A DNA stretch of 64,000 nucleotides, taken from NCBI GenBank assembly GCA_007745835.1, contig CP036424.1, forward strand, positions 3,955,968-4,019,967, in the 5' to 3' direction. The notes beneath the pieces were generated by a model, which had not been told where the DNA came from, did no database searches, and was given only the letters and a program-made list of their open reading frames with translations. Below are positions 44,459 to 51,370 of this stretch, in pieces (within the stretch, counting starts at the first letter, position 1; each line of letters opens with the position of its first letter). Origin of the DNA: Planctomycetes bacterium MalM25 (GTDB taxonomy: Bacteria; Planctomycetota; Planctomycetia; Pirellulales; Lacipirellulaceae). The translations under genes and the position numbers were made by a program.

Positions 44459-44564
44459 TTGCCGCACGCGCCTATTCTGCGTGAGAATCTCCGCGACAGC
44501 CCTTGCTATCGGCCACGCCGTTCAGACAACGCAAGCACGGATGACACACCAGAGAAGGCTCTCA

Positions 44565-45635
44565 ATGTTCGCACGACTCGGTTGCGTGCTCTTTGCCGCC
44601 TTGCTTTTAACAACCCCTGGTATCGCTGGGCCACTTCGTGCTGGCACTCTGCTAGCAACTGATCGCAATCGCGGTGTCGTCGTAGCAATCAATCCTGAAA
44701 CCGGTGAGCAGGAAGTGATTTCTGGAGGGGGCTTGGGTGTGGGCCCAAACCTTGACGCACCCGCGGAGATTGTTGTCACGCCTGATCAGCGGATTTTTGT
44801 CTTTGGCGCCGCGGAAGGGAACCTGATTGTTGAGATTGAGCCATCGACGGGCGATCGCCGCGTTGTCGCTGGCCCTGGTGCCCCTGGCAGTCCATCCTGC
44901 TGCCTGTTTGGGCTAGCGCTGGCACCAGAAGGACTCCTTGCCACGATCGACCGAGACGTGGGCAGGGTTCGCTTCATCGACCCTGGTGACGGAACGAGTT
45001 ACCTCTATGGCCCTAACCTAGGGAGGGACAGTAATCCTTGGGATCTCGTTGTAGATGCAGATAACGCGATCTACATAGCAAACTCTACCCCTTCCACACT
45101 GCAACGACTCTATCGACCGACAGCTTTATCATCAGTGAATATCGAGGTGCTTGCGGATTCTAGTTTTGTTGGTCCTGGCCTCACATTCCGCACTCCTAAC
45201 TCAATCACGTTTGGGGGGGAAGGGACTCTCTATTCGACCAGTTGGGGGGATGCGCTCTACAGTGTCCTCGGTTTCGACCTAACAACGATGGAGCGAGTGC
45301 TGGTATCCGGGTCGAATCGCCTCGATTTTGAGGGGTGGCAAAATCCCTACGAGCGAGGCGGGGGGCCGGCGCTGACGGACATGGCGGAGATCGCCGTGGG
45401 GTTGGATGGCTACCTCTACGCCACGGCGCCGCAGACGGGGCTCTTTCGGATCGATCCCGAGACCGGTGACCGGGAGCTGATCAGTGAATTGAAAGGCCTG
45501 TCCGGCCTGGCGATCGTCCCGATTCCTGAGCCAGCGACGCTCGGTATGCTCGTCTGTCTATTCGGCTTCGCTCTAGCCCGTAGGATAGGTGGTCCCGCCG
45601 GCCCATCGGTTGGGATCAACATCGCCAGCCTGTAG
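44565..45635 (+). CDS. PEP-CTERM protein with NHL/beta-propeller-like repeats
   Basis: A 356-residue product from ATG 44565, supported by GAGAAGG upstream and a signal peptide (MFARLGCVLFAALLLTTPGIAG). The body shows five or six repeats of the kind DRNRGVVVAINPETGEQEVI, ATIDRDVGRVRFIDPGDG and LYATAPQTGLFRIDPETG, suggesting a beta-propeller. IPEPATLGMLVCLFGFALARR is the PEP-CTERM signal. It is followed by an unusual 15-residue tail whose stop codon (TAG, 45633-45635) lies inside an inverted-repeat arm, so the tail may be repeat-derived. The gene is notably AT-richer than its neighbours in its first two thirds. Confidence 0.82.
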   Translation: MFARLGCVLFAALLLTTPGIAGPLRAGTLLATDRNRGVVVAINPETGEQEVISGGGLGVGPNLDAPAEIVVTPDQRIFVFGAAEGNLIVEIEPSTGDRRVVAGPGAPGSPSCCLFGLALAPEGLLATIDRDVGRVRFIDPGDGTSYLYGPNLGRDSNPWDLVVDADNAIYIANSTPSTLQRLYRPTALSSVNIEVLADSSFVGPGLTFRTPNSITFGGEGTLYSTSWGDALYSVLGFDLTTMERVLVSGSNRLDFEGWQNPYERGGGPALTDMAEIAVGLDGYLYATAPQTGLFRIDPETGDRELISELKGLSGLAIVPIPEPATLGMLVCLFGFALARRIGGPAGPSVGINIASL

Positions 45636-45726: not shown

Positions 45727-47997
45727 TTACAGATCGAAGTTCACCGTCCGCGTTAGGTAGCGGTAGAAGCGCTGCCACAGGGTGCGCGGCTCGGTCGTGA
45801 TCTTCGCTTCGCCCACGAGGCCGACTCGCAGCAGCTCGTGCTGGTGCTTGGCGGCGTCGGGCAGCCGGGCGTAGTCGCCCAGGGGGACGATCGCCTCGAA
45901 CGCGGGCTCGAGCGGCTTCGCTTTGCCGGAGGGGTCGGTCTCCGTGGCGAGCACGCCGCCGGTCAGGCTCGACAGGCGGGGGGGCGACTCGGGCAGGTCC
46001 TCGCGGGAGATCGACTTGATCTCGCTCGGGTACTTCAGGTCGGTCGACTGGTTGAGCATCAGCTTCACCTTCTGCCCCTCGGTGACCAGGTCGATGCTGT
46101 CCTGGGCGATCACCAAGCGGGCCTCCAGCGCCCGGGGGTCGCCGACGCGGCAGAACCGCTCGCCCTGCTCGAGGGTGGCGCCGAGGTTCTTCTTGTCGAG
46201 CGGCGTGCCGGTCCAGACGGCCAGCTCCTTCGGGTCCTGGCCCCGGTCGGTGCGGTAGTCGGGCGGCATGACGACGCCGGCGATCGGCGCGCGGAGGACG
46301 AGGCGCTCGGCGTCCTCGAGCTGCTTGGCGAGCTGCTCCTCGGCCGAGGCGAGGCTCTCGCGGACCTGCGCCACGCGGGTCGAGGCCGACTCGTCGTCGA
46401 ACGCGAGCGCCTGGAGCGAACGGATCTCCGCCTTGTAGGCGGCGACCTCGCCCTCGAGGCGGCGGATCTCGATCTGCAAGTCGACGCTCTTCAGGCGGGC
46501 CAGCTTGTCGCCCGCGGTGACCGTGTCGCCCGGCTCGACGAAGACCTCCTCGAGCGAGGCGGGCACTTCGGCGTAGACGCTCGCGGCGCCGCGCGCGTGG
46601 ATCACCGCGGGGGCGTACACGTACGACGGGTACGGGATGGTCGCCACGGCGGCGACCACGCCGGCGACCAGGGCGCAGGAGATGAGGAACGGCGTGCGTT
46701 TCACTTTGTGTAGCCTCCCGGGCACCCTAAAGAACTTCCACAGCTTCACCATCGGCATGCCGATCATGCCCCACACGGCCATCAGCGCGATCGCCTGGCC
46801 GAGCGGCTTGAGGCCGTACGGCTCGAACACCTGGTTCAAAAAGTAGAGGATCGAGAAGATCACCACCCAGCGATACAGGAACGCCGCCACCGTGTAGAGC
46901 GCGAAGAGCCACTGGTTGCGTTTCGGCAGGAAGGGGTCCTCCTGCTGCTCCATGCCGAGGCAGTACTCGGAGAGCTTGCGGGTGAGGATCTGGTTCGACT
47001 TCTGGCGGAGGTTGGGGACCTCCATCAGGTCGCTGACGATGTAGTAGCCGTCGTAGCGGAGCAGCGGGTTTGCGTTGAACAGGACCGTGCTCACGCTGCT
47101 CACGAACATGATGTTCAGGCAGGTGTAATGCAGCAGGCCCGGCTCGGTGAACCACCAGATCCACGTGCACAGCGAGGCGAGCACCACCTCGACGTACATG
47201 CCCGCGGCGCCGATCGCGGCCCGGTGCCACTTGCTGGGCAGCATCCACGAGTCGCTCACGTTGCAGTACAGGCAGGGCGTGAGCACCAGGAGCATGACGC
47301 CCATCTCGTGGCACTCCCCGCCGAAGTGCTTGCAGGAGAGGCCGTGGCCGAACTCGTGCAGGACCTTCGTGCAGCCGAGCACGGCCGCCATCAGCAACCA
47401 GTTCTCCGCGGCGAAGAAGGCGTTGAAGCTGGGGAGCTTCGACTGGAAGTCATCGAACTGCACGCCGATCAGCAGCGCCGCCGACAACACGAGCAACGAG
47501 CTGAGGAAGAAGCCGGTCTGGCTCCAGAACCAGCGGACCGGCGGGAAGGCGTAGAGGAAGTTGAGGATCCGCTCCGGGTCGATCCCCTTGAAGCGGATCG
47601 ACAAGATGTTCGTGAGCTTCTGCTTGAACTCCTTGCCGCGGCGCTCGTCACGCCGCTTCTTGAGCTGGTCGCCTTGCCCGGGCGAGTCGGTGATCACCAG
47701 GCCGCTCTGGTGCAGCGTGCCGATGAACTGCTGCAGCTCCTCGACGCGGATCGACTGCGGCGGGAAGCGGGCCTCGAACTCCTCGGCGACCTCGTCGAGG
47801 CTCGACTCGCCGTCGAGCATCTCGAGGATGGCGAACTCCTCTTCCTCGAAGCGGAAGTACTGCAGGGCGACGGGGTCCTTCACGACCCAGTAGACCTTGC
47901 CCTGGTACCGCTGCTTCTTGGCCTCGAGGTCGGGCCGCACCCGGATCGGCAGCTTCCGAGAGCTGGACGAGACGAGGCTGTCGGCGAGAGAGGCCAT
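45727..47997 (-). CDS. PqqD - M50 protease-like - HlyD fusion
   Basis: A 756-residue membrane protein. Residues about 20-110 are a PqqD-like winged-helix fold (YWVVKDPVALQYFRFEEEEF, LDGESSLDEVAEEF). A polytopic segment follows with site-2-protease features: HEFGH at 214-218 in KVLHEFGHGLSCKHFGG and NPLLRYDGYY at 310-319 with the third ligand Asp316. From about 460 there is a HlyD-type barrel-sandwich and coiled-coil hairpin (VYAEVPASLEEVFVEPGDTV, then APIAGVV). PqqD domains bind precursor peptides in RiPP pathways; M50 membrane cores cleave or scaffold peptides; HlyD adaptors span the periplasm. It is the last gene of the operon, after a dispersed repeat. The substrate is unknown and no ABC or RND pump gene is adjacent. 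Confidence 0.88.
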   Translation of the reverse strand: MASLADSLVSSSSRKLPIRVRPDLEAKKQRYQGKVYWVVKDPVALQYFRFEEEEFAILEMLDGESSLDEVAEEFEARFPPQSIRVEELQQFIGTLHQSGLVITDSPGQGDQLKKRRDERRGKEFKQKLTNILSIRFKGIDPERILNFLYAFPPVRWFWSQTGFFLSSLLVLSAALLIGVQFDDFQSKLPSFNAFFAAENWLLMAAVLGCTKVLHEFGHGLSCKHFGGECHEMGVMLLVLTPCLYCNVSDSWMLPSKWHRAAIGAAGMYVEVVLASLCTWIWWFTEPGLLHYTCLNIMFVSSVSTVLFNANPLLRYDGYYIVSDLMEVPNLRQKSNQILTRKLSEYCLGMEQQEDPFLPKRNQWLFALYTVAAFLYRWVVIFSILYFLNQVFEPYGLKPLGQAIALMAVWGMIGMPMVKLWKFFRVPGRLHKVKRTPFLISCALVAGVVAAVATIPYPSYVYAPAVIHARGAASVYAEVPASLEEVFVEPGDTVTAGDKLARLKSVDLQIEIRRLEGEVAAYKAEIRSLQALAFDDESASTRVAQVRESLASAEEQLAKQLEDAERLVLRAPIAGVVMPPDYRTDRGQDPKELAVWTGTPLDKKNLGATLEQGERFCRVGDPRALEARLVIAQDSIDLVTEGQKVKLMLNQSTDLKYPSEIKSISREDLPESPPRLSSLTGGVLATETDPSGKAKPLEPAFEAIVPLGDYARLPDAAKHQHELLRVGLVGEAKITTEPRTLWQRFYRYLTRTVNFDL

Positions 47998-48017
47998 AGC
48001 GAGGGGGGCGTACTTAT

Positions 48018-48112
48018 CCCCCTCTCCTTTTAAGGGGAGGGGTTAGGGGAGGGGTGAATCGGGTACCCGGGTCGCCCCCTCCCCTAGCCCCTCCCCCTCA
48101 AGGTGGAGGGGG
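48018..48112. repeat. Two-hairpin GC-rich dispersed element, copy A3
   Basis: Same organisation as A1 and A2, placed one base after the stop of the HlyD gene and about 20 bases before the M50-HlyD start, inside the operon. It could attenuate or punctuate the transcript between the two genes. Confidence 0.82.
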
Positions 48113-48113
48113 A

Positions 48114-49106
48114 CTACTTCGCGTCTCGACCGTGCGAGGGACGCTTGCTCAGCGCTTCGCCCTTCGTGTCGAGGTGGATCTTCATCGTCGCGGGCAGGTT
48201 GGGGCTGATGAGCCAGCGGCCGTCTTCGAGGCGGTTGCTGATCTCGGCGCGGACGAGGTACTTCGGCTCAGCCTCCATGACGGCGACCGGGTCGACGTAC
48301 ACGACGTAGCCGGTCGCCTGCTCGACGCGATTCGGGCCCACCCGCACATCGACCGTGACGCGGCAGTTCTCGACCTCGCGGGGGTCGTACTGACTGAAGT
48401 AGACCCAGCCGTCGATCTGCAGCGTGTCGAGCTGGGCGATCTCGGCGATCACCTCGCCCGGCTGGACCCACTCGCCCTGTTCGCGGTGCATACGCAAGAC
48501 CTCGCCGTCGAAGGGGGCGAGGACCTGACGCTTCTCGATGGCGATCACGGCGGCCTCCATCTCGGCCCGCTTGACGAGCACCTCCAGCTCGACCAGTTCC
48601 TGGTCCTTGATCGCCTTCTCCGAACCGAGGACGGCCCGGTCGTACTCGAGTTTCTCGCGGCGGATCTCGGCTTCGGTCACCGCGCCCTTCACCTCGAGGT
48701 TGGCCTGCATGACCTCTTCCCAGTCGGCGCGCTCAACGAGCTTCTGCGCCTCGGCGTACCGCCACTCGATGTCGTCCTTGGCGCGTTTCTGGGCGAGCTT
48801 CAGCTCGTGACCGGCGCGCTTGTAAGCGACCTCCGCCTCGCGGGAGTCGATCCTCGCGAGCAGCTCTTCGCCCTTGAAGCGCGAGCCGCGGCGCACGGTG
48901 ACGTGCGTCAGGATGCCCGCCTCGGGCGCGGCCAGGTCGATGCGGCTCACGAGGCCGATCACGCAGCGCTGGACTTCGTGCGTCGTGCCGGCGGAGCGGC
49001 CCGCGGCGCGATCGGCCGGCGCGGCGGGCAGTTCGAACTGCGCCAGCGCGGGAGACGCCAGCAGGGCCAGCACGGCGGCGGCAGCGAGCTTGCTTGGGGG
49101 CTTCAT
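48114..49106 (-). CDS. HlyD-family periplasmic adaptor
   Basis: About 330 residues from ATG 49106, which opens a clear signal peptide (MKPPSKLAAAAVLALLASPALA). An alternative GTG at 49175 overlaps the stop of the upstream gene (GTGA) and would add 23 residues. The barrel-sandwich halves are at the start (LAAPEAGILTHVTVRRGSRF) and after the hairpin (LAPFDGEVLRMHREQGEWVQ), with a long coiled-coil hairpin (about residues 85-185) between them. A beta-barrel domain completes the adaptor (LDTLQIDGWVYFSQYD). Second gene of the three-gene operon. Confidence 0.87.
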   Translation of the reverse strand: MKPPSKLAAAAVLALLASPALAQFELPAAPADRAAGRSAGTTHEVQRCVIGLVSRIDLAAPEAGILTHVTVRRGSRFKGEELLARIDSREAEVAYKRAGHELKLAQKRAKDDIEWRYAEAQKLVERADWEEVMQANLEVKGAVTEAEIRREKLEYDRAVLGSEKAIKDQELVELEVLVKRAEMEAAVIAIEKRQVLAPFDGEVLRMHREQGEWVQPGEVIAEIAQLDTLQIDGWVYFSQYDPREVENCRVTVDVRVGPNRVEQATGYVVYVDPVAVMEAEPKYLVRAEISNRLEDGRWLISPNLPATMKIHLDTKGEALSKRPSHGRDAK

Positions 49107-49171
49107 CAGGATCACCCGGGGGGCGTGCGTGGTCGGATTCGGGCACGGCGGCCCGCTCTCCATCGTATTCG

Positions 49172-51370
49172 TCACAACCGGAACAGGATCTTCGACCGAA
49201 CGAAATCGACGAGGTCGTGCAGGTAAGCGTACGCCAAGCTGGCGCGCCCGCAGTGGACACGCGCCTTCACCTCGGCGCCCACCTTCGGGTCGGGGGCGGC
49301 AGCGCGGAACTCTTCCTGGTTGAACTCGACGGTCAGCAGCACGGTGTTCCCCTCGTCGCCCCGCACCTCCGAAGAGGCGGCGATGTCCGCCTCGCGGAGC
49401 GTGCCGGTGAGGGTCGACTCGGTGTTGGTCGCCAGGAGGAACTCGACCTCAAGCGATTGGCTCTCCGACTCGCGGATCGCCCGCGTGATGTGGCCGAGAC
49501 GCTTCTCGGGCATCTTCACTTCGAGGATCCAGTCGCGCTCGGGATCCGCCACTTCAAGCAGCACCTGCCCGCGACGGACGGGGCGGCCGTTGAGGCGCTC
49601 TTCGACGCGGCTGGTGATGATCTGGCCCTTGATCGGGCTCGTGACAATCAGCAACCGTTGCTTCGCGTCGAGCAGCTGCAGCTCCGCTCGCAATGAGGTC
49701 ATCTCCTCCTGGATCCGCGCCAGACGGGCCAGTTTCTGGGCTCGCTCGCTGGGAGAGAGCTCGCCCTGCTGGGAGCCGATCTCAAAATCGAGCGACGCGT
49801 ACTCCGAGCTGATCTGGCTCAGCCGCCCGCGAGTGGACGTCAGATCCTTCTCAAGATCGATGTTCTTGAGCGTGAGCAACTCCTCGGCCTCGGCGACCTG
49901 CTGGTCGTCGGTCACGGAGATCGTGCGGACCTTACCGTCGATCTGCGCGAAGACGTTCGCCTGCACCCGCGGGCGGAGCTTGCCGTCGCCCTCCAGCGTG
50001 AAGTCCTTCTGAATCATCAGCAAGGCGGCGAGCGCGCCGGCGATCAGCGCGGTGATCCCGACCGTCTTGGGCAGCGTGTGCCGCCGGAACATCCAGGTCG
50101 CCTTGCCGAGGGTCTTCCAGAGGGGCATCAGGAAGAGCCCCTCGTGCTCCAGCGCGTTGGCCAGAGCCGTTTCGCTGTGCGAGCGGACCACGTCGACACG
50201 CTGCGTGAAGCCGTCGGCGATCCGGTTGTCGACCATCTGCTCGACGATCAGGGCGCCGATCACGTCCCCCTCGCGGCGGCCGCCCTTGCGGACCTCCTCC
50301 TCGGTCGCCTCGGGGTCGACGCCCCGACGATCAACCAGCGGCAGGATGGCCATCGCCTTGGTCTGCGACTCGTCGACGTAGGCGTCGAGCGCCTTCTCGA
50401 CCTGCGGCGCGAGCTGCGACGTGTCGCCCGTGTACCAGACGTCCTCGCCCGTCTTGGTGACGGCGCGGGCCAGCTTGGTCAGCAGGGTCGAGACGTTCGA
50501 GCGCGCGTCAGGAGTGTCCTGCCCGCTGATCGCTTCAATCTTCGGGCGGCGGCCCTTGCCGACGGCGACCGACACGCGGTCGGCGCCGATCAGTCGGCGG
50601 CCCTCGTTGCTGATCGTGTAGCTCGCCTGCTTCACGTCGAGCTGATCGTGAGCGAGGCGTGTGAACGACTCGAGCTGCTCCCACAGGCCCTGCTTGTCGG
50701 CCAGCAGCGCGAGCCGGCGGCCGCGGAGGTAGTCGCCGGCGAGCTGGCAGACTTGCAGCAGGAAGCGGAGGTAACCCGACTGCACTTGCGGGCGTCCGCC
50801 GGGGCGTTGGAAGACCTCGACCACGCCCTGCGCGCCCTGGTCGTTGTGCACCGGGGCGAGGACGAGCAGGTAGTCGGTGGCGTTCGCGGGGCTGTGTTCT
50901 TCCGCGTCGGTGATGATTTGGCCGTCGGCTCCGAAGCCCGAGTGCGGCTGGACGATCGCCCCCTCTTCGAAGCCGGGCCCGGTCGGGGCCGACAGGACGC
51001 GGTGCAGCAGGCGGCCGTGCTGCTCCTGGGCGATCGGGTTCTCCGCCAAGCCGGTCTGGCGGAGGTTGATCTGGTAGCCGAGCTGCAGCTGGCCCGTGTC
51101 GGAGAGTGTCCAGACGGCTCCGCCGGCGGCCGCCAGGGCCGAGACCACCTTGTTGAGGAACTCCTCGTAGTAGCGGTCGGGCGCAATGTCCTGCCGCGAC
51201 AGATCGCCGATCTGCTGGACGATTGACTGGATCTCCGCCTTGGCCCTCTGGATGGCGGCGGCGTCGACCCCCCCGGCCGGGGAGCCGCTCGCGCCGTTGC
51301 CGGCGCGCGCTTGGGCGGCCGCCTCGCGGGCGCCGGGGTCGGGGACGTTGGTGGGTTCTTGGCTGCTCAC
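49172..51370 (-). CDS. GAF-domain protein fused to a HlyD-type adaptor
   Basis: A 732-residue protein. Residues about 40-215 and 225-415 are two GAF-like domains (AAAGGAVWTLSDTGQLQLGYQ; RRLIGADRVSVAVGKGRRPK), expected in the cytoplasm. A membrane helix lies at about 438-456 (GITALIAGALAALLMIQKD). The C-terminal 270 residues are HlyD-like: barrel-sandwich halves around VFAQIDGKVRTISVTDDQQV and TSPIKGQIITSRVEERLNG, with a coiled-coil hairpin between them. The layout suggests a sensor joined to a periplasmic adaptor in one chain. First gene of the operon; its stop overlaps the possible start of the next gene. The GAF ligand is unknown. Confidence 0.85.
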   Translation of the reverse strand: MSSQEPTNVPDPGAREAAAQARAGNGASGSPAGGVDAAAIQRAKAEIQSIVQQIGDLSRQDIAPDRYYEEFLNKVVSALAAAGGAVWTLSDTGQLQLGYQINLRQTGLAENPIAQEQHGRLLHRVLSAPTGPGFEEGAIVQPHSGFGADGQIITDAEEHSPANATDYLLVLAPVHNDQGAQGVVEVFQRPGGRPQVQSGYLRFLLQVCQLAGDYLRGRRLALLADKQGLWEQLESFTRLAHDQLDVKQASYTISNEGRRLIGADRVSVAVGKGRRPKIEAISGQDTPDARSNVSTLLTKLARAVTKTGEDVWYTGDTSQLAPQVEKALDAYVDESQTKAMAILPLVDRRGVDPEATEEEVRKGGRREGDVIGALIVEQMVDNRIADGFTQRVDVVRSHSETALANALEHEGLFLMPLWKTLGKATWMFRRHTLPKTVGITALIAGALAALLMIQKDFTLEGDGKLRPRVQANVFAQIDGKVRTISVTDDQQVAEAEELLTLKNIDLEKDLTSTRGRLSQISSEYASLDFEIGSQQGELSPSERAQKLARLARIQEEMTSLRAELQLLDAKQRLLIVTSPIKGQIITSRVEERLNGRPVRRGQVLLEVADPERDWILEVKMPEKRLGHITRAIRESESQSLEVEFLLATNTESTLTGTLREADIAASSEVRGDEGNTVLLTVEFNQEEFRAAAPDPKVGAEVKARVHCGRASLAYAYLHDLVDFVRSKILFRL

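Follow-up and report, generated by a model that had tools for sequence, protein, structure and literature searches.

A GAF-HlyD, HlyD and RRE-M50-HlyD gene trio of Planctomycetes bacterium MalM25 as the probable core of an ABC-less exporter for large LEPR-XLL proteins

Introduction

How planctomycetes and many other Gram-negative bacteria place very large proteins on their surface is an open question. Here we analyze three adjacent genes, each encoding a protein with an HlyD-type adaptor, in a 64,000-nt stretch of the Planctomycetes bacterium MalM25 genome (GCA_007745835.1, contig CP036424.1, positions 3,955,968 to 4,019,967; hereafter, the window). A locus combining a secondary SecA_DEAD gene with M50-HlyD, GAF-HlyD, and HlyD genes has been described once, by Kamneva et al. 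2015 (PMC4452313), who noted the missing ABC transporter and suggested SecA as the ATPase and M50 as the pore. That article gives the cargo as not known and calls the broader biological role completely unknown; the words PqqD, DUF3467, giant, and cadherin are absent from its main text. What we add to this module, which lacked a known cargo, is a probable substrate class: mostly large proteins carrying an N-terminal LEPR-XLL leader.

Results

Three genes with HlyD-type adaptors

The trio lies on the minus strand in the order GAF-HlyD, HlyD, and PqqD-M50-HlyD, with the following features (window coordinates):

49172..51370, minus strand: GAF-HlyD protein of 732 aa, with a GAF part, one hydrophobic helix at about residues 433-455, and an HlyD adaptor
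50237..50635, minus strand: GAF domain (residues 246-378) of that protein; Pfam PF01590, 22.7 bits, cut-off 22.4
48114..49106, minus strand: HlyD/RND-type periplasmic adaptor with signal peptide; likely start ATG 49106, listed open reading frame (ORF) 49175-48114
45727..47997, minus strand: RRE(PqqD)-M50-HlyD protein of 756 aa, from its ORF, domain matches, and model
47689..47952, minus strand: RRE/PqqD-like domain (residues 16-103), proposed leader reader; VIA-align of the predicted model
47014..47415, minus strand: predicted site-2 protease core (residues 195-328); VIA-align of the model and Pfam M50
47344..47358, minus strand: HEFGH zinc/catalytic motif (residues 214-218); sequence and alignment
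47047..47070, minus strand: NPLLRYDG second metal-ligand motif (residues 310-317); sequence and alignment
45757..46698, minus strand: HlyD/MacA-like adaptor (residues 434-747); MacA match of the model, aligned span 432-748

Pfam HlyD_3 matched the GAF-HlyD, HlyD, and M50 proteins with E=3e-10, 9e-13, and 3e-9, respectively, which bears out the adaptor in each gene read by an initial annotation made from the sequence alone. That annotation also described tandem GAF domains; Pfam supports a single one, and no second GAF was found in this protein at E≤0.1. Since residues 433-455 are its only hydrophobic stretch, the GAF part would be cytosolic. In the middle gene, by reading of the sequence, a Sec-type signal peptide MKPPSKLAAAAVLALLASPALAQ begins at ATG 49106, and a similar N-terminal signal peptide is present in several of the 15 homologues shown. 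As the start of this peptide falls within the listed ORF, the overlap of stop and start codons at 49172-49175, formerly invoked as support for co-expression, is probably unused and not the true start of the gene; starting at ATG 49106 leaves a gap of 65 nt behind the GAF-HlyD gene. Support for co-expression comes instead from the co-orientation and conservation of the three genes.

The protein of the last gene matched Pfam Peptidase_M50 with 30.2 bits (cut-off 27.2), and residues H214, E215, H218, N310, and D316 are invariant across 16 aligned M50-HlyD sequences. Judged by its sequence, the site-2-protease membrane core proposed earlier is thus intact, with both the HExxH and the second D motif present. 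In an AlphaFold2 model of the protein (mean pLDDT 82.4, pTM 0.59), VIA-align superposed residues 195-328 on the RseP orthologue 7w6y (Z 10.8, root-mean-square deviation (rmsd) 3.3, 132 aligned residues) and residues 142-328 on SpoIVFB 8vjl (Z 10.1, rmsd 4.1, 134 aligned), although a Z near 10 is weak by itself for a helical core, and the assignment is carried by the Pfam match and the invariant motifs. The HlyD part aligned with MacA 9qgy (Z 16.8, rmsd 7.9, 251 aligned). The PqqD domain scored 17.9 bits by sequence, under the Pfam cut-off of 23.4, but the model supports an RRE/PqqD fold at the N-terminus: residues 16-103 aligned with the lasso-peptide B1 proteins TbiB1 (5v1v; Z 10.2) and TfuB1 (6jx3; Z 9.8), both bound to a leader and both with rmsd 2.7 over 84 residues, and TfuB1 was also matched at E=0.0046 in a profile search of PDB sequences. 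The PqqD reading of the initial annotation therefore stands as a predicted fold, not as a significant sequence match. Here, this fold is fused to M50-HlyD, and the leader that it would meet differs. Residues 160-452 of the model further include seven long helices (six hydropathy peaks in the sequence), an arrangement that would leave the RRE domain on the cytoplasmic side and the HlyD part beyond the cytoplasm.

Conservation of the trio and its partner families

Gene neighborhoods, whose comparison had been proposed along with the initial annotation, were compared in the best 80 of 552 confirmed public loci, nearly all titled planctomycetes and mostly metagenome-assembled genomes, with every stretch assigned to its best-matching family and a partner counted if within 6 kb of the M50 gene. 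Of these loci, 54 extend ≥5 kb upstream of this gene, and the trio was complete in 46 of them; three of the others had neither partner, three were without HlyD only, and two without GAF-HlyD only. In the 41 loci whose flanks span ≥6.5 kb upstream and ≥2.5 kb downstream, we counted HlyD 38 times, GAF-HlyD 39, DUF3467 18, and a SecA-like gene 7 times. The M50-HlyD protein occurs in 46 of 199 Planctomycetota genomes (M50+, the window's genome included); searching with the protein alone (E≤1e-10) or with a 16-row profile (E≤1e-20) gave the identical set. Extra M50-HlyD copies at G105:C1:140493-142664, G137:C5:46627-48822, and G194:C20:26574-28775 have one in-frame stop within the profile match, which may be decay or merely the gene end.

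Clustering of 1,237 ORFs from 106 loci uncovered two further families that recur in the M50 neighborhood: DUF3467, at 21 loci, and a SecA-like ATPase of 600-750 aa (12 loci, one of them cut by a contig end and two being alphaproteobacterial plasmids). In the family f6 genomes G002, G034, G095, and G172, DUF3467 lies ~2.2 kb to one side of an M50 gene and SecA ~0.1 kb to the other. Genome-wide, a short SecA (frame ≤770 aa) is present in 27/46 M50+ genomes versus 3/153 lacking the M50 protein (M50−), and DUF3467 in 28/46 versus 12/153. Within 6 kb of an M50 gene we scored 18 SecA copies, from a hand-picked list of 39 entries that includes four long-frame ones through adjacency and one full-length entry of an M50− genome, and at least 12 DUF3467 copies, from a list that leaves out further units inside one protein. 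The genome of the window encodes each family once, unlinked to the trio: a 654-aa short SecA (G000:C1:2601384-2603339), in which SecA_DEAD, PP_bind, and P-loop domains were matched but not the wing-scaffold (SecA_SW, E≤0.001), and DUF3467 at 879076-879336; it also holds one ordinary SecA. The trio is therefore not the self-contained set first supposed, because short SecA and DUF3467 belong to it, unlinked here and linked in other genomes. DUF3467 is apparently a further partner of the module, new to this analysis. A SecB-like chaperone identity for it was rejected, as its model (mean pLDDT 78) gave neither a Foldseek match at E≤0.001 nor a VIA-align Z≥5. Besides the single-match frame, ten genomes have open frames of 215-318 aa in which DUF3467 is matched twice (G024, G048, G069, G087, G105, G137, G152, G181, G194, and G198).

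LEPR-XLL proteins accompany the M50 protein

The LEPR-XLL or Planc_extracel motif (short form xExLExRxLLAAD) was tracked with the profiles NF012209, PF07595, and A4, the latter built from seven leaders of the window's genome and four from related loci. In this genome the motif reads xE-x-LE-x-R-x-[LVM]-[LMF]-A-A-D and mostly follows a basic stretch. A4 (E≤0.01) retrieved 19 ORFs of 373-6256 aa there, and in all 19 the match begins ≤72 residues from the first possible start. Genome G121 yielded nine A4 matches, of which we read seven; six of these begin no later than residue 42, and one (L043, part of A4) begins at ~93. Matches in these two genomes are partly circular because A4 derives in part from their leaders. 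Two positions of the 13-column block, E5 and R7, do not vary across 25 planctomycete leaders (the 19 above and six from G121) and 10 proteobacterial ones; an eleventh, of Rhizobium (FESLEPRLLLSAD), lies outside that alignment. Of 10 N-termini tested, 8 gave a match to PF07595 (Planctomycete extracellular), always under its cut-off, so the motif itself was already known; this family reportedly originated in work on Rhodopirellula. NF012209 at the permissive E≤10 gave nine matches in the window's genome, seven of which were read; six are ORFs with the N-terminal motif, and the other, L169, was not counted, being a membrane-transporter-like ORF. At this threshold the profile also matches 7 of 14 control genomes, one above the cut-off.

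Five of the 19 ORFs were scanned for domains (one over its first 4,000 residues) and contain RTX repeats and bacterial Ig-like, carbohydrate-binding, subtilase, Calx-beta, PA14, pectate-lyase-like, and dockerin domains. Seven of the eight leaders measured, out of 25 read, have no hydrophobic h-region (maximum 11-residue hydropathy 0.3-1.0 versus 2.9, 2.75, and 1.7 in three comparison N-termini read as Sec-type). The motif proteins L167, L171, L172, and L193 share a C-terminus in which a hydrophobic LLLL-like stretch is followed by ~40 residues, most of them acidic, and a final AF, a pattern that could be a second sorting signal.

We then compared motif and M50 protein across the 199 Planctomycetota genomes (46 M50+ and 153 M50−), with the 14 control genomes alongside. 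NF012209 (E≤0.05) matched 21 of the 199, namely, 20/46 M50+ versus 1/153 M50− (p=7e-14, Fisher, uncorrected for kinship). Within the eight families for which both kinds of genome are listed, it was found in 8/13 M50+ versus 0/9 M50− (p=0.0055), in a small test whose M50− genomes are those listed, some of them incomplete; two of these families have no NF012209 match. A4 behaved similarly, with 20/46 versus 9/153 at E≤0.01, 10/46 versus 1/153 at E≤0.001, and 18/44 versus 9/153 once G000, the window's genome, and G121 were removed. Either motif profile matched 27/46 M50+ versus 9/153 M50− genomes, and M50 protein, SecA, DUF3467, and a motif profile come together in 19 genomes. A motif match lies 1.2 kb from the M50 gene in G173, 2.8 kb in G160, and 5.4 kb in G107; no other LEPR match was found within 6 kb of an M50 gene (26 of 55 rows computed, the remainder by eye).

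Another M50-HlyD gene of the window's genome, a diverged one, is accompanied by a GAF-HlyD homologue at G000:C1:1097-1102 kb (L042), the latter without a GAF domain found by Pfam. Directly upstream of both lies a 1962-aa ORF with LERRRVLSAD, a motif seen by eye and by A4 and not matched by NF012209. Ser/Thr kinase-WD40 ORFs of ~1,850 aa also adjoin M50-HlyD loci (L042:12018-17579 and L059:2956-8466); these giants were rejected as cargo since they contain Pkinase and WD40 domains.

Motif giants on proteobacterial plasmids that carry the M50 gene

Of 80 proteobacterial plasmid records matching the M50 protein, among them 18 from Escherichia and 8 from Citrobacter, we read 12. A gene whose product runs to thousands of residues is usually found close to the M50 gene, and a giant with the N-terminal motif or a divergent form of it is encoded on 11 of the 12 records: E. 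coli, Methylosinus, Pseudosulfitobacter, Burkholderia, Thalassospira, Ensifer, Rhodobacteraceae M382, Mesorhizobium, Pontibrevibacter, Pseudohalocynthiibacter, and Rhizobium. The divergent forms are EPRVVYDA in Burkholderia and ESRQLFDG in E. coli. In M382, the motif protein differs from the giant ORF beside the M50 operon, the record start falling between them; the Pseudohalocynthiibacter giant runs to the end of its record, and the Rhizobium motif lies in frame upstream of the annotated start. Among the five giants scanned first, NF012209 scored 12.5-30.4 bits in four, three of them above the cut-off of 17, and did not match that of E. coli. The Pseudosulfitobacter giant has ~12,900 residues. 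The Pontibrevibacter annotation lists, in this order, a LEPR-XLL giant, DUF3467, an adaptor, a PqqD family protein, a DEAD/DEAH protein, and another adaptor, which makes the DEAD/DEAH protein, by position, a candidate SecA-like one. On the E. coli plasmid L142 (NZ_CP081687.1), the M50-HlyD locus includes TolC, two adaptors, and an Ig-like protein of 4,459 aa.

Discussion

The trio almost certainly belongs to the module of Kamneva et al. 2015 (PMC4452313), with which it shares adjacent M50-HlyD, GAF-HlyD, and HlyD genes, the lack of an ABC transporter at the locus (trio and seven neighbors), and a secondary SecA_DEAD protein without wing-scaffold in the genome, albeit unlinked here. To that module we add the RRE fold, the DUF3467 partner, and the LEPR-XLL substrate class. 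NF012209 and PF07595 describe the same leader motif, and their family names mention no exporter. We found no paper linking LEPR-XLL to the SecA/M50-HlyD module (the name Planc_extracel was not itself searched) and no described reader for this motif in the literature.

Export of LEPR-XLL proteins by the module is, in our view, clearly the likelier case, and we favor, with somewhat less assurance, the trio as the membrane-and-periplasm core of an ABC-less, type-I-like exporter for large LEPR-XLL surface or extracellular proteins. A large cargo protein, basic at its N-terminus and bearing the leader xE-x-LE-x-R-x-LLAAD, would stay competent in the cytosol, perhaps through DUF3467. The RRE/PqqD domain of the M50 protein, a fold taken from the model, would then bind the leader, an assignment that we hold on balance to be right. 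The short SecA-like ATPase, which co-occurs with the M50 protein, would push the chain across the M50 membrane core of about seven helices; that the MalM25 system indeed uses this motor seems a reasonable, if not strong, expectation. An M50 membrane core in place of a pump, as the initial annotation had it, is likely and was already proposed (PMC4452313). The HlyD parts of the three proteins would build a periplasmic duct to a TolC-like channel, and the GAF part of the first gene may regulate from the cytosol. The site-2-protease site, whose residues are conserved, may cut the leader or gate release, leader cleavage by the M50 protein being a tentative assignment. The peptide handling first suggested for the locus would thus retain a plausible PqqD-type leader reader, with its likely cargo shifted to large LEPR-XLL proteins encoded mostly elsewhere (short precursors were not searched for systematically).

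Such a machine resembles type I secretion (HlyB-HlyD-TolC, with SiiE-like giant adhesins) in its HlyD adaptors, TolC at some loci, and giant adhesin-like cargo. It departs from it in that no dedicated ABC transporter accompanies the adaptors at the locus (an unlinked ABC partner was not searched for), and in its N-terminal leader motif, the type I signal being reportedly C-terminal. Whether all this amounts to a separate system, in which a LEPR-XLL leader, an RRE fused to a site-2-protease gate of the inner membrane, wing-less SecA power, three HlyD adaptors, and a TolC-like channel serve as one machine for many giant surface proteins of planctomycetes and for adhesin-like giants of Proteobacteria, is a possibility that we advance with reserve.

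Three alternatives were weighed. Giants could cross SecYEG by ordinary Sec export with a SecA2-type short SecA, the M50 protein acting as a signal-peptide-peptidase-like processor and HlyD carrying the chain across the periplasm. SecA2 systems are indeed known (PMC4452313), the short SecA keeps its SecA_DEAD, PP_bind, and P-loop domains, the M50 core is RseP-like, and the leader L194 has a hydrophobic stretch (2.2), as does L190 upstream of the motif if its first start is used. However, the missing h-region in seven of the eight leaders measured and the lack of a wing-scaffold match in the short SecA render this route unlikely. Maturation and export of ribosomally synthesized and post-translationally modified peptides, with the M50 protein cutting short precursors as in daptide systems and the HlyD parts exporting them, would suit the RRE-like N-terminus and the match of residues 30-412 to the daptide protease model NF041824 (178.6 bits, E=2e-52). 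This score nevertheless falls far under the equivalog cut-off of 300, the MalM25 protein has an HlyD domain added, no enzyme of such pathways was found among seven tested neighbors, and the recurring companions are SecA-like proteins, DUF3467, and, on proteobacterial plasmids, giant genes, so that we consider this reading highly improbable.

We give even less credit to a regulatory or sensory envelope complex devoid of any export role, in which a GAF sensor would act with a site-2 protease and the motif association would reflect shared ancestry. The GAF domain and the protease core fit this proposal, and all traits clump phylogenetically; on the other side stand the motif giants beside the M50 locus in several proteobacterial genera, the short distances in G173, G160, and G107, the within-family contrast, and the three HlyD adaptors with TolC neighbors at some loci.

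Several observations weigh against the proposed LEPR-XLL exporter. Its binding, cleavage, and transport steps are deduced, and similarity to an RRE is no proof of binding to this motif. NF012209 has no match in 26/46 M50+ genomes, neither motif profile matches in 19/46, and G165 has a motif match without an M50 protein. A4, partly built from the window's genome, matches in 9/153 M50− genomes, and Deinobacterium chartae, a control from outside the phylum compared for the motif side only, matches NF012209 above the cut-off. The genome counts are not phylogenetically independent, and the within-family test is small. By the ≤770 aa rule, 19/46 M50+ genomes have no short SecA, and the rule counts one doubtful fragment (G075, aligned over residues 17-532 only); DUF3467 is not specific to the system, since it also occurs in 3/14 control and the 12 M50− genomes. 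Beside the M50 genes of E. coli, Burkholderia, Azospirillum, and Thalassospira, the stretches read list no gene resembling SecA (the gene tables being incomplete), so the motor may be elsewhere or differ there. Most planctomycete substrate candidates, including those of the window's genome, are encoded away from the trio, few planctomycete loci have a linked TolC gene (a cluster of five loci), and the Azospirillum plasmid L145 showed no motif giant in the 19 kb read.

Linking the 2015 module to the LEPR-XLL motif turns it into a system open to testing, for which a short leader, the domain proposed to read it, and a motor can all be named. If the proposal holds, RRE-type leader recognition would reach from small peptides to proteins as long as the Pseudosulfitobacter giant.

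Surroundings of the trio

As the initial annotation stated, the trio has none of the expected companions close by: Pfam matched neither an ABC transporter nor a radical SAM enzyme nor an outer-membrane channel among the seven neighbors tested. Elsewhere, an ABC-ATPase-like cluster, judged by a look at the sequences, is present in 9 of the 106 clustered loci, four of its genes within 4 kb of M50. An ABC gene is thus apparently not a regular neighbor of M50-HlyD homologues, at odds with the case that was to overturn the pump-less reading, a pump always near them; the other such case, a failure of the three genes to co-occur in other genomes, did not arise either. TolC-like genes, sought in the flanks as had been proposed, do adjoin some homologues (L052 by Pfam, L053 by clustering, and five plasmid loci by annotation) but not the MalM25 trio, the OEP matches of this genome lying elsewhere. 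The seven neighbors (~40-58 kb) encode a GH2 enzyme, an NHL/PEP-CTERM protein, a pyridoxal phosphate (PLP) decarboxylase, and a DNA methylase, the remaining three being ORFs that match no Pfam family. The NHL-repeat protein, next to the trio at window positions 44481-45635, has a borderline PEP-CTERM sorting signal, and another surface-sorting route may therefore exist.

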